64,000 nt of DNA from Paracoccus amoyensis. GTDB taxonomy: Bacteria; Pseudomonadota; Alphaproteobacteria; Rhodobacterales; Rhodobacteraceae. Below, piece by piece: positions 31,612 to 36,022 of this stretch (its first letter is position 1; each line of letters begins with the position of its first letter). The translations under genes and the position numbers were made by a program. The stretch is taken from positions 496,001 to 560,000 of the forward strand of contig NZ_JACOQL010000003.1 in assembly GCF_014490725.1 (NCBI RefSeq), read 5' to 3'. The notes below the pieces were generated by a model. It searched no databases, was not told where the DNA came from, and was given only the letters and a program-made list of their open reading frames with translations.

Positions 31612-32577
31612 ATGGACTTCAACACAATCATCCAGATCCTTGACAGTGCCGTGCGCCTGATGACGCCGCTGCTGCTGGCCTGTCTGGCCGGGCTGTATTC
31701 CGAAAGATCGGGCATTTTTGACATCGGGCTGGAAGGCAAGATGCTGATGGCGGCCTTTACCGCTGCGTCCGTCGCCTATGTCACCGGCAGCGCGTGGCTG
31801 GGCCTGTTGGCTGGTATCGGTGGATCGCTGGGCCTGTCGCTGATCCACGGCGTTGCCTCGATCACGTTCATGGGCAACCAGCTGATCTCGGGCGTTGCGA
31901 TCAACTTTCTGGCCTCCGGCCTGACGGTTCTGCTGGGGCAGAAGATATTCGGTCTTGGAGGGCGCACCCCGTCGCTAGAGGGGCCCGCACGGTTCAGCGA
32001 AATCACCCTGCCCTTTGCTGACAGCATTCGGAATGCACCTATTATCGGGCCAATCTATGCCGATCTGATCTCGGGCCATTCGATCCTTGTCTATATCGCC
32101 TTCCTGTGCGTGCCGCTGACATGGTGGGTGCTGAACCGCACCCGCTTCGGCCTCCGCTTGCGGGCGGTGGGCGAAAACCCCGCATCGGTCGATACGGCAG
32201 GCGTCTCGGTCGCACGGCTGCGCTATGCCGCCGTCGCCATCTGCGGCATCCTGTGCGGCATTGCAGGGGCCTATCTTGCCACCAGCCTGTCGGCAGGTTT
32301 CGTGAAGGAAATGACGGCAGGTCGCGGGTTCATCGCGCTGGCGGCGCTGATTTTTGCCAAATGGCGGCCCTGGAGCGCGCTTTTTGCCACTTTCCTCTTC
32401 GGATTGTTGGAGGCTATAGCGAACCGTTATCCCAACTTGGATATCGGACCTATTACGATCCCCTCCATGTTCATGAATGCGCTGCCCTACATCCTTACCG
32501 TCATCATTCTTGCCGGCTTCGTCGGCCGTGCAATCCCGCCGCGTGCGGGCGGAGAACCCTATGTCAAAGAGCGCTGA
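31612..32577 (+). CDS. Nucleoside ABC transporter permease 2
   Basis: A 321-residue BPD_transp_2 permease, second half of the channel. Seen: LTPLLLACLAGLYSERSGIFDIGLEGKML-type block near residue 15-45 (SERSGIFDIGLEGKM visible), GVASITFMGNQLISGVAINFLA near 85, TRFGLRLRAVGENPASVDTAGVSV near 180 and AGRGFIALAALIFAKWRP near 235, all typical of YufQ/NupC-type permeases. The end overlaps the phosphorylase gene by 17 bases. Confidence 0.93.
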   Translation: MDFNTIIQILDSAVRLMTPLLLACLAGLYSERSGIFDIGLEGKMLMAAFTAASVAYVTGSAWLGLLAGIGGSLGLSLIHGVASITFMGNQLISGVAINFLASGLTVLLGQKIFGLGGRTPSLEGPARFSEITLPFADSIRNAPIIGPIYADLISGHSILVYIAFLCVPLTWWVLNRTRFGLRLRAVGENPASVDTAGVSVARLRYAAVAICGILCGIAGAYLATSLSAGFVKEMTAGRGFIALAALIFAKWRPWSALFATFLFGLLEAIANRYPNLDIGPITIPSMFMNALPYILTVIILAGFVGRAIPPRAGGEPYVKER

Positions 32578-33361
32578 GCTTGCAGCAATCATTCATGAAC
32601 GCGCCGGAACCGAGACCCCGGAATTTGGCCTGATCCTTGGATCGGGACTTGGGCATTTGTCGGGCACCGTGGACGGCGTCGCCATCCCCTATTCCGAATT
32701 GCCCGGCTTTCCCCATGCAGGCGTGTCAGGTCATGTTCCGCAACTGGTGATCGGTGAGTTAGAGGGCCATCGCGTCGCCATCTTCGGTGGACGCGCCCAT
32801 TATTACGAAAGTGGCAAGGCGGATGCCATGCGTCTGCCGCTTGAGACTTTGGCGCAACTGCGTTGTGAAAAGCTGATCCTGACCAATGCGGCCGGATCCG
32901 TCAGGGATGAAATTCAACCCGGCGGCCTGATGCTGCTGAACGATCATATCGCTTTTGCCGGGAATAACCCGCTGATCGGCGAAAAGACAGATGCGCGTTT
33001 TGTGCCGATGACTGACGCCCATGATGTGCAGATGCGAAGCGCATTGCGGAAAGCGGCACTGGAGGAAGGCATCGACCTGTCAGAGGGCGTTTATTGCTGG
33101 TTTTCCGGTCCCAGCTTTGAAACCCCCGCTGAAATCCGCGCGGCGCAAATTCTGGGCGCAGATGCCGTAGGAATGTCGACAGTGCCTGAAATCATCCTTG
33201 GTCGTTTCCTTGGACTGCGCTGCGCCGCCATATCGGTTATCACAAATATGGGTGCTGGGCTTAGCGACGAATCCATCAGTCACGACCACACCAAAGCCAT
33301 GGCCCCTCTGGGTGCGGCAAAACTGGAACGTATTCTGCGCCGTTTCCTGCGTGACAGCTAA
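32561..33361 (+). CDS. Purine-nucleoside phosphorylase
   Basis: A 266-residue trimeric-type (PNP/MTAP class) phosphorylase that splits inosine or guanosine with phosphate into base and ribose-1-phosphate. The ATG at 32561 has a GCGGAG site upstream and overlaps the permease gene by 17 bases. Seen: LILGSGLGHLSG, the phosphate-site GRAHYYESG near residue 83 (RxHxYEG family pattern), LTNAAGSVRDEIQPGGLMLLNDHI, and GPSFETPAEIRAAQILGADAVGMSTVPE (as two blocks). It supplies the cytoplasmic step after nucleoside uptake. Confidence 0.95.
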   Translation: MSKSAELAAIIHERAGTETPEFGLILGSGLGHLSGTVDGVAIPYSELPGFPHAGVSGHVPQLVIGELEGHRVAIFGGRAHYYESGKADAMRLPLETLAQLRCEKLILTNAAGSVRDEIQPGGLMLLNDHIAFAGNNPLIGEKTDARFVPMTDAHDVQMRSALRKAALEEGIDLSEGVYCWFSGPSFETPAEIRAAQILGADAVGMSTVPEIILGRFLGLRCAAISVITNMGAGLSDESISHDHTKAMAPLGAAKLERILRRFLRDS

Positions 33362-33626
33362 GGCAATACTTGCCGGCCGAGCATGCTCCCGGTGGGCACG
33401 TAATGCATTCCACGTCATCCAAGGTATCGCCTAGAAACCCATCCCCTTATTTTTCACGACGCCACGGAACGGTGTTGGTCGTATGAGCTCTTAGCCGTCA
33501 CTTGCGATGCTGCGGTGGACCTTGCTGAAGACCCTAGTTCCTCTCTCCACGTGACCGTCCATCGCCATTTCCTGTGCCAATCAAGCTTACAGGGACGCAA
33601 GTTCCCTATATTTGCATTCAAAGCGT
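33362..33626. other. Intergenic stretch with no recognisable gene
   Basis: This gap lies between the phosphorylase and the secreted protease-like gene. It is visibly less GC-rich than the flanks. Short frames on both strands show no family signature. A small hairpin GGCAA/TTGCC just after the phosphorylase stop is too weak to call a terminator. It may be the edge of a small inserted region, but I see no repeat or transposase to prove it. Confidence 0.4.
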
Positions 33627-34784
33627 TTAGTTCGCCGTCGCCGCAATCAGGCTCAGATCCAGAAACCAAGCCCTATAGCGATCCAAAATACAGGCTGCAT
33701 CATCGCCGCAACGGTCTCGCTGGCTGATCCAAATGCGCTGCTTCTCCGCCAGTGCAGAGCGCTCACCATCACTGCTTCGATTCCGAAGAACAGAGTAGAT
33801 GGAGCCCAACGCCCGGTCCTCCAGCCACAGCTCGAAGCTGCCACAGATTGCATGCTCCGTGCTCGTCGCTGCCCTTGCGCAATTGTAGCCTGGCCCGGAA
33901 ATGCCTACAGACAAACCCTGTTGGTGAAGGTCTGTCGCAGCACCGGTGCACCAGTCTTTCAGCGCTATGCTTACCTTTGTCGAATTGACTTGGCTGCTCA
34001 TTTCAGGAACCAAGCTAGCAAAGAGCTCTCCACCGAAAAGTTCATGGCCAAGTTTAAGCCGCTGACCGCCCTGCTCCCGTAGGAACGCAGCGTCGAGACC
34101 GAAGAGCGGGGCGCAGTCAACGCTTAGTCCAATGTAGGTAACCGCCTGCCAAGCTAGACGGCGCGGCGTTGGCCTCTCATCCGGCATTCTAATCAGGCTA
34201 CCGTCAGTCACCGCCGTGTCAATGTCGAGGCGCTGTGCGATTGCTGGCGTTATGGGCAGGACGTCATTCGGTCCGGCTGTCGTAAAATAACGAATGGCCT
34301 CCCGCGATAGACCCACATGCGTGAGGAAGGAACCGATGTCGGCGTTGGCGACTCCTGACTCAGATATCAGCGATGTCCCATCTTCCAACGCCTGATTGCG
34401 GTAGGCCGCGTGCACACCGATTGTAGAGGTGCTGTCCATCATTCGGCTGCCGCCGCTGACCCAGATCACGGCGCAGATCGAGTGGCATTCAGCCCCTGGC
34501 GCAACGATCGTAGTAAAACCGCGTTGCCCAATTTCCGCTGCGATCGACAGCCCCTCGTCCACGAGACCGCCTGGCGAGTGGAGAAAGACGATAGCCCTCT
34601 CGGTTCGTTGCGAAAAATCATAGAACCGGTCGGCGTCTCCGCTTTCGATGGGTCCGGTGATGTCGATGACGGAAGGTGCCGTCGCATCCCCCTGCGTAAT
34701 CTGGATGTCGGCCGCTAATGCAGAGGAATGTCGAACAAGAGCAAAGGCAGCAACGGCAAAGAAAGAGGCTTTCAAAATTTTCAT
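33627..34784 (-). CDS. Secreted ClpP-like protein with C-terminal LprI-like domain
   Basis: A 385-residue protein. The ATG at 34784 gives a signal peptide (MKILKASFFAVAAFALV, cleavage near ALAA). Residues about 25-190 resemble the COG3904 periplasmic ClpP/crotonase-like fold: FLHSPGGLVDEGLSIA, the candidate nucleophile Ser in GAECHSICAVIWVSGGSR, and a His 23 residues later in IGVHAAY, close to the Ser-His spacing in ClpP. Residues about 300-380 match the LprI (DUF1311) pattern with paired cysteines: YNCARAATSTEHAICGSFE and DRCGDDAACILDRYRAWF. LprI of Mycobacterium inhibits lysozyme. It is alone, with modestly lower GC than its neighbours, suggesting transfer. Function unproven. Confidence 0.78.
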   Translation of the reverse strand: MKILKASFFAVAAFALVRHSSALAADIQITQGDATAPSVIDITGPIESGDADRFYDFSQRTERAIVFLHSPGGLVDEGLSIAAEIGQRGFTTIVAPGAECHSICAVIWVSGGSRMMDSTSTIGVHAAYRNQALEDGTSLISESGVANADIGSFLTHVGLSREAIRYFTTAGPNDVLPITPAIAQRLDIDTAVTDGSLIRMPDERPTPRRLAWQAVTYIGLSVDCAPLFGLDAAFLREQGGQRLKLGHELFGGELFASLVPEMSSQVNSTKVSIALKDWCTGAATDLHQQGLSVGISGPGYNCARAATSTEHAICGSFELWLEDRALGSIYSVLRNRSSDGERSALAEKQRIWISQRDRCGDDAACILDRYRAWFLDLSLIAATAN

Positions 34785-34957
34785 TTGGGATCCCGGAGAA
34801 TAGGCCAGCTGCGTAGCGGCACCAACACAACCTTTTGCCGAGCGCCGAGCGCCGGTCAACGACTTTCTTCTAAAAAATCGACGCGAACTTCGGCTGTTTA
34901 AATGTCCGTAGAGAACGGCAGCTTTGTCCCGCAAAGCAGACCAATATACTTCAGGAT

Positions 34958-36022
34958 CTATTCTAATTGGTCAGGGTGCATCGTGGCCAAAGCCGCCTGA
35001 ACCTTGGCCGCCGCCAAATCCAGATCCGACAGATTGTCCAGCGCAACCAAGCGCCCCTTCCCATCATCATGCCTTGCGCGATGGCGGCGATAGCGCGGGT
35101 CATAGTGATCCCGCAACAGGCCAAGCGCCAAAGCATTCCAGTCAGCCGCTGCGATCCGTGCTTGCCAATCTGCGATCCGCTCGGCCGGGTGAAGCGTGGT
35201 CATGGCTGCGATGATGCTGGCAATTCGTGCGGGATCGGCAACCATAGCGCGATAACCGTCGGCCGTGAATTTCGCCCGCGCGTCCAGCGGCACATCCAAT
35301 TGAATGCGGGGTGCGGCGCATATCGCCTGCCAGACAGCCTTTGGGACATTCAGGTTACCAATCCGACTGCTTTCCGATTCGACGACAACCGGGCGCGAGG
35401 GGTCCAATGCTTCAAGCGCAAGGGCCAGCCGGCTTTCAAACAGTTTCTGGCTTGGCTGTCCGCCGGGCATGGCACCAAACAGACTGCCACGGTGGTTCGC
35501 CAGCGCCTCAAGATCGATGACCTGCACCCCACGGGCTGACAGCCTGGCAAGGATGGCGGTCTTGGCGCTGCCGGTGTTCCCATCCAGCACGACGACCGGT
35601 GATGGCACGTGACCGTTCTGAACCAGATCTACGACCAGCCTGCGCCACGCCTTGTAGCCACCCTCGATACGGTTCACTCGCCAGCCGATCTGGCCCAGGA
35701 TGGTTTCAAAGCTGCCCGAGCGCTGGCCACCACGCCAGCAATAGATCAATGCTTTCCACGATCCGCCCCGGTCCGCCAGCGCCCCCGAAATATGTCGCGC
35801 CGCATTGGCGGCGACCAGCCCACCGCCAATCTTGCGTGCATCAAAGGGCGAAACCTGTTTGTAAATCGTGCCGACCCGTGTGCGTTCCTGATCGCTTAGA
35901 ACCGGCAGGTTGATCGCGCCGGGCAAATGATCTTCGGCGAACTCCGAAGGCGCGCGAACGTCGATAATGTCGTCGAACCCCGCGAAAGCGGGGTCCAGAA
36001 CACGTATCAGTTTCAAGGTCAC
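34958..36022 (-). CDS. mnmH: tRNA 2-selenouridine synthase
   Basis: A 354-residue enzyme that converts 2-thiouridine at the wobble position of some tRNAs to 2-selenouridine using selenophosphate. Seen: the N-terminal rhodanese domain with the catalytic Cys at about residue 95 (YCWRGGQRSGSF), and a P-loop VLDGNTGSAKTAIL near residues 145-158. These are the two hallmarks of MnmH/SelU. It starts 3 bases after the L,D-transpeptidase stop. selD, needed for selenophosphate, is not in this window. Confidence 0.94.
   Translation of the reverse strand: MTLKLIRVLDPAFAGFDDIIDVRAPSEFAEDHLPGAINLPVLSDQERTRVGTIYKQVSPFDARKIGGGLVAANAARHISGALADRGGSWKALIYCWRGGQRSGSFETILGQIGWRVNRIEGGYKAWRRLVVDLVQNGHVPSPVVVLDGNTGSAKTAILARLSARGVQVIDLEALANHRGSLFGAMPGGQPSQKLFESRLALALEALDPSRPVVVESESSRIGNLNVPKAVWQAICAAPRIQLDVPLDARAKFTADGYRAMVADPARIASIIAAMTTLHPAERIADWQARIAAADWNALALGLLRDHYDPRYRRHRARHDDGKGRLVALDNLSDLDLAAAKVQAALATMHPDQLE

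Follow-up and report, generated by a model that had tools for sequence, protein, structure and literature searches.

An apparently mobile single gene of Paracoccus amoyensis encodes a probably secreted protein joining ClpP-like and LprI-type domains

The fusion gene and its place between punA and mnmH

The window, i.e., the whole 64,000-nucleotide stretch of Paracoccus amoyensis DNA analyzed here (contig NZ_JACOQL010000003.1, positions 496,001–560,000), contains a space of 1596 bp between the stop codons of two flanking genes (33362–34957). In the list of open reading frames a single gene stands up within this space, at 33627–34784 on the minus strand, and encodes a fusion of a ClpP-like and an LprI-type domain. 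No partner gene was found among the reading frames of the space, in agreement with an earlier note on this DNA, made from the letters alone. The main features of the locus are as follows.

32477..33361, plus strand: punA, purine nucleoside phosphorylase, flanking gene (longest frame; PF01048, PNP_UDP_1)
33362..34957, no strand: presumed insertion, comprising all the DNA between the punA and mnmH stop codons (gaps of at most 74 bp in 19 of 26 congeners)
33495..34940, minus strand: stretch also present in P. thiocyanatus and P. aminovorans, within their inserts (about 86–87% identical)
33627..34784, minus strand: coding sequence of the fusion protein, 385 amino acids from ATG plus stop (under purifying selection)
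33630..33899, minus strand: LprI-type domain, residues 296–385, with C302, C314, C359 and C365 (PF07007; 12 of 13 fusions)
33900..34178, minus strand: helical segment, residues 203–295, with invariant C224 and C279 (model pLDDT 91; only weak PDB matches)
34185..34712, minus strand: ClpP-like domain, residues 25–200 (profile alignment, predicted fold, CLP_protease matches)
34410..34412, minus strand: His125 codon, putative base (unchanged in all 13 fusions and all 54 domains)
34479..34481, minus strand: Ser102 codon, putative nucleophile within the motif C100-x-S102-x-C104 (unchanged in all 13 fusions and all 54 domains)
34713..34784, minus strand: likely signal peptide, residues 1–24, ending in SSALA and followed by AD (sequence reading, simple hydropathy)
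34958..36022, minus strand: presumed mnmH, tRNA 2-selenouridine synthase type, flanking gene (rhodanese domain; 89 of the genus's 101 genomes have a match)

The earlier note had described a patch of lower GC content lying between conserved genes, and both points hold. The neighbors carry a PNP_UDP_1 and a rhodanese domain, the latter in the gene that we take to be mnmH. The GC content is 56.2% in the 1596-nt space and 59.9% in the window; the drop is real but modest, with values as low or lower in 3.8% of the 1596-nt stretches of the window (sampled every 10 nt). A promoter and terminator scan was uninformative (one promoter-like and three terminator-like sites versus 0.7 and 2.1 in shuffled sequences). 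It should be mentioned that 133 bp (33362–33494) separate punA from the stretch that also occurs in the P. thiocyanatus and P. aminovorans inserts.

Comparison with other genomes of the genus revealed that the window patch is a true single-gene insertion. Thirty loci were examined from the 89 genomes with an mnmH match, one of them being the window's own. Both punA and mnmH were present in 26 of the 29 other loci, and no punA was found within the examined DNA of the other three (L057, L072, L074). The gap between the two genes does not exceed 74 bp in 19 of the 26 congeners, compared with 1596 bp in the window. In the remaining seven it measures 192–997 bp (L052, L055, L059, L061, L066, L069, L070), and none of these seven genomes contains a full-length fusion. 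In P. aminovorans, the punA–mnmH site has a gap of 61 bp (L075). Thus, the space of the fusion gene is missing or otherwise filled in the congeners examined and its protein is under purifying selection (see below), so the gene is more than a chance reading frame.

A self-moving transposon was rejected, since no transposase was seen by eye among the reading frames of 33362–34957 and no terminal inverted repeats of the space were found in the window or in locus L001. No terminal direct repeats of at least 12 bases were reported at the ends of the space.

Domains of the fusion protein

At the N-terminus of the window protein, a hydrophobic stretch precedes an alanine-rich end, and a hydrophobic 11-mer is located near the start of all 14 fusions analyzed (mean values of 1.5–3.2 by simple hydropathy). 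Judging from this signal-peptide-like start, the protein is probably secreted, as had been proposed. It is not a lipoprotein, because its first cysteine is residue 100.

The ClpP-like fold is supported by profile alignment and structure prediction, while Pfam alone stays below its cut-off: CLP_protease gave 12 bits with the window protein against a cut-off of 20.2 (E 0.19). The same family was matched at E 0.1 or better by seven of 13 fusions (best 2.2e-4), and NfeD1b_N by one of the 13. When a profile of the 13 fusions was aligned with ClpP (weak, E 0.04), Ser102 and His125 fell on the Ser and His of ClpP; the next matches of the profile were unrelated nucleoside phosphorylases at E 0.25. These are the candidate Ser and His that had been noticed 23 residues apart. 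The full-length AlphaFold2 model, built from seven sequences, is of moderate quality (pLDDT 74, pTM 0.53); within the PDB, Foldseek ranked it closest to 1510-N, a stomatin-specific protease (E 6.7e-7), and to chains of ClpP. Among the 50 matches listed, VIA-align gave Z 14.4–15.4 for the predicted fold against ClpP, the match extending over approximately residues 28–197.

C100, S102, C104 and H125 are all present in 54 of 54 ClpP-like domains, which were collected at E 1e-5 from the examined loci and include close relatives; this count describes conservation and is no independent test, because the domains were picked with a profile containing those residues. Of the 54, 43 have D or E at position 174, the site of a candidate acid. 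From the conserved pair we infer that the protein may act as a serine hydrolase through Ser102 and His125. The domain also resembles phage proteins: NCBIfam NF045542, a ClpP-related phage head maturation protease, was matched weakly by all 13 fusions (best 8.8e-6; 21 bits against a cut-off of 120 for the window protein), and PHROGs families matched the ClpP part weakly (best 1.1e-6).

Comparison with known proteins revealed several partial likenesses. The fusion shares with ClpP (S14) the predicted fold and the Ser and His in register, but differs from it in its export signal, the C-x-S-x-C motif around the Ser, a score below the Pfam cut-off on its own and the fused LprI domain. The hydrophobic start argues against a cytoplasmic tetradecamer working with an ATP-driven unfoldase, as in ClpP. 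The best Foldseek match, the membrane protease 1510-N, which we take to be of the NfeD type, uses a Ser-Lys pair (mutants S97A and K138A are named in its PDB entry titles), whereas the conserved partner in the fusion is His. The C-x-S-x-C motif and the His were found in secreted alphaproteobacterial ClpP-like proteins, presumably COG3904, which have another C-terminal domain or none, with no LprI seen. They are also present in protein AUZ95270 of Agrobacterium phage Atu_ph07 (hhalign 99.6% over columns 14–224), again with no LprI seen; past column 224 hhalign did not detect the helical segment. In this phage of 490 kb the ClpP-like protein (L083:2959-3804) has a two-cysteine tail. Overall, the ClpP-like module occurs elsewhere without LprI and with other tails, and the comparison suggests that the fusion belongs with the known ClpP-like proteins of the envelope, whose C-terminal domains are exchangeable. 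The C-x-S-x-C proteins met in this work are annotated as hypothetical or by resemblance alone.

The C-terminal LprI-like domain reported in the earlier note was recovered with PF07007 above the cut-off (residues 302–359, E 9.4e-5, 23.2 bits against 22), and 12 of 13 fusions matched this family at E 0.1 or better. Its four cysteines, C302, C314, C359 and C365, are invariant in the 13 aligned fusions. The same is true of all eight cysteines of the window protein (these four together with C100, C104, C224 and C279), among which disulfides presumably form. Residues 203–385 modeled alone gave a confident, almost wholly helical structure (pLDDT 91, pTM 0.84). No convincing solved relative of this half emerged from sequence searches, and Foldseek returned no match at E 0.001 for the confident model, which is not proof of a new fold; the best VIA match was 6ar7 (Z 6.0, 72 residues, 2.8 A). 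PHROGs matched the LprI part weakly (best 3.4e-5), with families other than those of the ClpP part. Elsewhere, LprI was found by profile in a 238-residue frame (L127) and by Pfam in L092, a protein of 1305 residues from the genus, where it follows a peptidoglycan-binding domain. Both L092 and L091 (the latter read by eye) belong to the genus and are very long, with LprI and a large uncharacterized part coming after the peptidoglycan-binding domain.

The fusion shares with M. tuberculosis LprI and Salmonella ScwA the four-cysteine C-terminal LprI domain and an export signal, and differs from them in the ClpP-like domain in front, with no lipobox and no match to MliC (PF09864) at E 1 or better in the window protein. 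This difference bears on the description of LprI as a family known for lysozyme inhibition, which could not be upheld. According to passages of one study, the MliC domain of M. tuberculosis LprI suffices for lysozyme resistance, deletion of scwA leaves lysozyme sensitivity unchanged, and the Pfam name of the LprI domain has no experimental support (PMC7933661). The name LprI thus comes from a protein that inhibits through a different domain, and the label of lysozyme inhibitor is weak for the fusion and should not be passed on as established. Passages of the same study report that MltD levels follow ScwA and that the cysteines of ScwA are required for this effect (PMC7933661), and LprI proteins are proposed, in sections of two other papers, as immunity proteins against wall-targeting T6SS effectors (PMC8867033, PMC12135965).

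Distribution and horizontal spread of the fusion gene

The phylogenetic profile of the fusion revealed a rare gene. A full-length fusion was found in three of 101 genomes of the genus and a fusion in one frame in five of 394 genomes of the family, the own genome being included in both counts; one more copy in the family is split over two frames. In the sampled genomes of the class (385) and phylum (398), the fusion was found at E 1e-20 in the own genome only, and the other matches were ClpP-only or LprI-only. Some match was present in 87 plasmid records, three of which cover at least 80% of the query, all from Sinorhizobium; the match on S. meliloti pSymB is in pieces. In total, 39 of the 101 genomes of the genus match the query somewhere, mostly in ClpP-like proteins without LprI.

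Copies 80–88% identical to the window gene were found at four other places. In P. thiocyanatus (88%) and P. aminovorans (87%), the gene is flanked on one side by an SLT transglycosylase gene and on the other by a gene that was assigned by eye to the GNAT type. For this site we examined 30 loci, the best of 96 genomes of the genus with an SLT homologue. Both genes were present in 21 of them; L120 was dropped because of a meaningless value, and L101, from the carrier P. aminovorans, ends before the GNAT-type gene. The gap is at most 98 bp in 17 of the 20 usable loci, compared with 1523 and 1527 bp in P. thiocyanatus and P. aminovorans. Of the three other gaps, one holds an 881-bp stretch and two a LysR-type gene. 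In the latter two (L104 and L106, from G404 and G431), the gap is filled by about 1.4 kb of inserted DNA carrying a gene for a LysR-type regulator, identified by eye. The site therefore accepts other single genes, and the idea that it is a hotspot special to the fusion gene was rejected.

The position directly behind an SLT gene in these two species raises the question of whether the protein regulates the wall hydrolases of its own cell in the manner of ScwA, with the LprI end binding lytic transglycosylases and the ClpP-like end setting their level. The dependence of MltD levels on ScwA and its cysteines, cited above, fits such a role. However, the SLT homologue is present in 96 of 101 genomes and the full-length fusion in three, so the SLT neighborhood looks accidental and a dependence on the adjoining SLT gene was rejected. 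A patchy, mobile occurrence would also be unusual for a housekeeping regulator, and we consider this explanation unlikely.

The other copies (80–84% identical) are in an uncultured Pseudophaeobacter, in Cognatishimia and on an IMG/VR contig. When these three copies were compared with those of P. thiocyanatus and the window, the flanks proved alike only close to the gene, within about 160 bp on its upstream side and 130 bp on its downstream side; for two of the five copies, little upstream DNA entered the comparison (501 and 281 bp). The IMG/VR contig carries prophage-type genes identified by eye (portal, terminase, tape measure and lysis types). Its fusion gene sits past these genes and past an IS-type transposase, so this copy may be host DNA.

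We compared the divergence of the fusion with that of other genes. With P. thiocyanatus as the reference, identity of the fusion is 85.9% in Pseudophaeobacter, 81.8% in Cognatishimia and 52.3% in the congener G443; the corresponding values for the core enzyme Lpd are 71, 72 and 77%. In the tree, the copies of the two other genera, the three other Paracoccus copies and the one from IMG/VR form a group that excludes G443 (support 97/98), within which the tree leaves the branching order open. Comparison of P. thiocyanatus with P. aminovorans gave 98.6% identity for the insert (1502/1523) and, for nearby genes, 92.3% (lpd), 87.6% (SLT), 81.9% (GNAT) and 89.3% (moxR-like). The dS between these two species is 0.025 for the fusion versus 0.216 for lpd and 0.394 for the moxR-like gene. 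It should be mentioned that short stretches in the flanks of this insert are also near 98% identical, so small-scale recombination may be general there. Taken from sequence comparison, the fusion gene moves horizontally: its spread is seen in these data, and its route would be that of a lone gene entering intergenic sites or of island or plasmid cargo. The compositionally different patch described in the earlier note is thus best understood as horizontally acquired.

Between the window gene and the copies from P. thiocyanatus, P. aminovorans, L020 and L004, dN/dS is 0.13–0.21 (point estimates). Over all ten pairs it ranges from 0.11 to 0.32, the top value belonging to the pair P. thiocyanatus/P. 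aminovorans with very few changes. The values of 0.13–0.21 indicate selection, and the gene is kept for its protein. When the parts were analyzed separately (window against three copies), dN/dS was 0.08–0.105 for the ClpP part, 0.11–0.27 for the middle and 0.18–0.33 for the LprI part. The LprI end is the freer part, which fits a recognition domain and equally a peripheral one.

This selection also bears on the possibility that the protein is a pseudo-enzyme or passenger, a ClpP-like scaffold devoid of peptidase activity and carried by drift. Many proteins with the ClpP fold are non-peptidases, and the third catalytic residue candidate is not fixed. The low dN/dS against the four copies and the complete conservation of the Ser, the His and both flanking Cys in the 54 domains speak against this possibility, which we regard as very improbable.

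Neighborhoods of the copies and putative function

No gene common to the neighborhoods of all copies, which could name a target, was seen on inspection of the loci. Several distant copies lie near defense or mobile genes. In G443 (L089), type III restriction genes lie on one side of the fusion and the gene for a DEAD/UvrD helicase protein of 1721 residues, resembling DpdF and GajB, on the other, and in Parasedimentitalea (L005) the fusion adjoins genes for a PtuA-like ATPase and a T5orf172 protein. In G298 (L088:6488-12905), it adjoins tRNA-Leu and is followed by DUF3987, Toprim/DUF7146 and tyrosine integrase genes; the DUF3987, Toprim and integrase proteins had no PADLOC match. Presumably this island is similar to a P4-like or satellite element with the fusion as cargo. 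The S. medicae plasmids that carry the fusion (L080, L082) are typed as conjugative; transposase genes surround it there, and a toxin-antitoxin pair follows at a distance of a few kb. A prophage is located near the copy L020.

Such surroundings raise the possibility of a mobile defense or immunity gene, in which LprI would capture an incoming muralytic enzyme in the periplasm (phage endolysin, virion lysozyme or lysozyme-like T6SS effector) and the ClpP-like end would degrade it, i.e., an orphan immunity protein with a protease. The lower constraint on the LprI part, the resemblance of different phage families to the ClpP and LprI parts and the T6SS immunity proposed for LprI proteins fit this possibility. 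Orphan immunity genes of T6SS acquired-defense islands are lone and mobile like the fusion gene; the fusion differs from them in its protease-like domain and in having no known effector, and its immunity is putative. On the other side, no PADLOC family matched the window protein at E 1 or better, no effector gene was seen beside the fusion when the reading frames of the window were read, and no defense or mobile gene was seen by eye beside the copies of the window, P. thiocyanatus, P. aminovorans, G165, G292 and G363. The defense neighbors of the distant copies are a hint only, and we judge an immunity role rather unlikely. The bolder proposal of a self-contained proteolytic immunity gene, passed alone between genera, whose secreted product would recognize wall-cutting enzymes of phages or rivals by LprI and destroy them at the ClpP-type site, appears quite doubtful.

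Our preferred reading, to which we give about even chances, is a horizontally mobile, single-gene accessory envelope function performed by an exported ClpP-type serine hydrolase with an LprI adaptor. The protein would be exported to the periplasm by its signal-peptide-like start and fold as a ClpP-type serine hydrolase, with conserved residues, a predicted fold and a presumed activity. Putative disulfides would hold it together, and its helical and LprI C-terminus may serve as an adaptor for a peptidoglycan-acting enzyme or for the wall itself. Most likely, a wall enzyme would be cleaved or restrained, whereby an envelope attack would be tolerated or the cell's own wall hydrolases tuned. An adaptor for a peptidoglycan-acting enzyme combined with a periplasmic peptidase is the most economical reading because the LprI literature deals with wall hydrolases and T6SS immunity. 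The bound enzyme may be the cell's own or an attacker's.

The earlier note had suggested a defense or envelope-stress role. An accessory envelope role is likely, given the signal-like start, the Ser and His in ClpP register, the LprI domain, the horizontally acquired patch and the lack of a partner gene; the defense part is left with the contextual hints from distant copies. We found no paper on a ClpP–LprI fusion in the open PMC literature. Mobile, compact, under selection and without a partner gene in the window, the fusion is a convenient object for testing both domains. If it does cleave or capture wall hydrolases, it would show a target of LprI and add a proteolytic form of envelope immunity.

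Further ClpP-like proteins were met beside some copies. In Gemmobacter (L006:4270-5889), a second ClpP-like protein with a hydrophobic start lies directly upstream of the fusion (CLP_protease, E 1.7e-6), and its tail is similar, by eye, to that of a ClpP-like protein of G822 (L125). In S. meliloti, a ClpP-like protein is located downstream of the fusion. The genome of the window itself encodes another ClpP-like protein, which is short and has a hydrophobic segment in its N-terminal region (G000:C11:13619-14128; L094).
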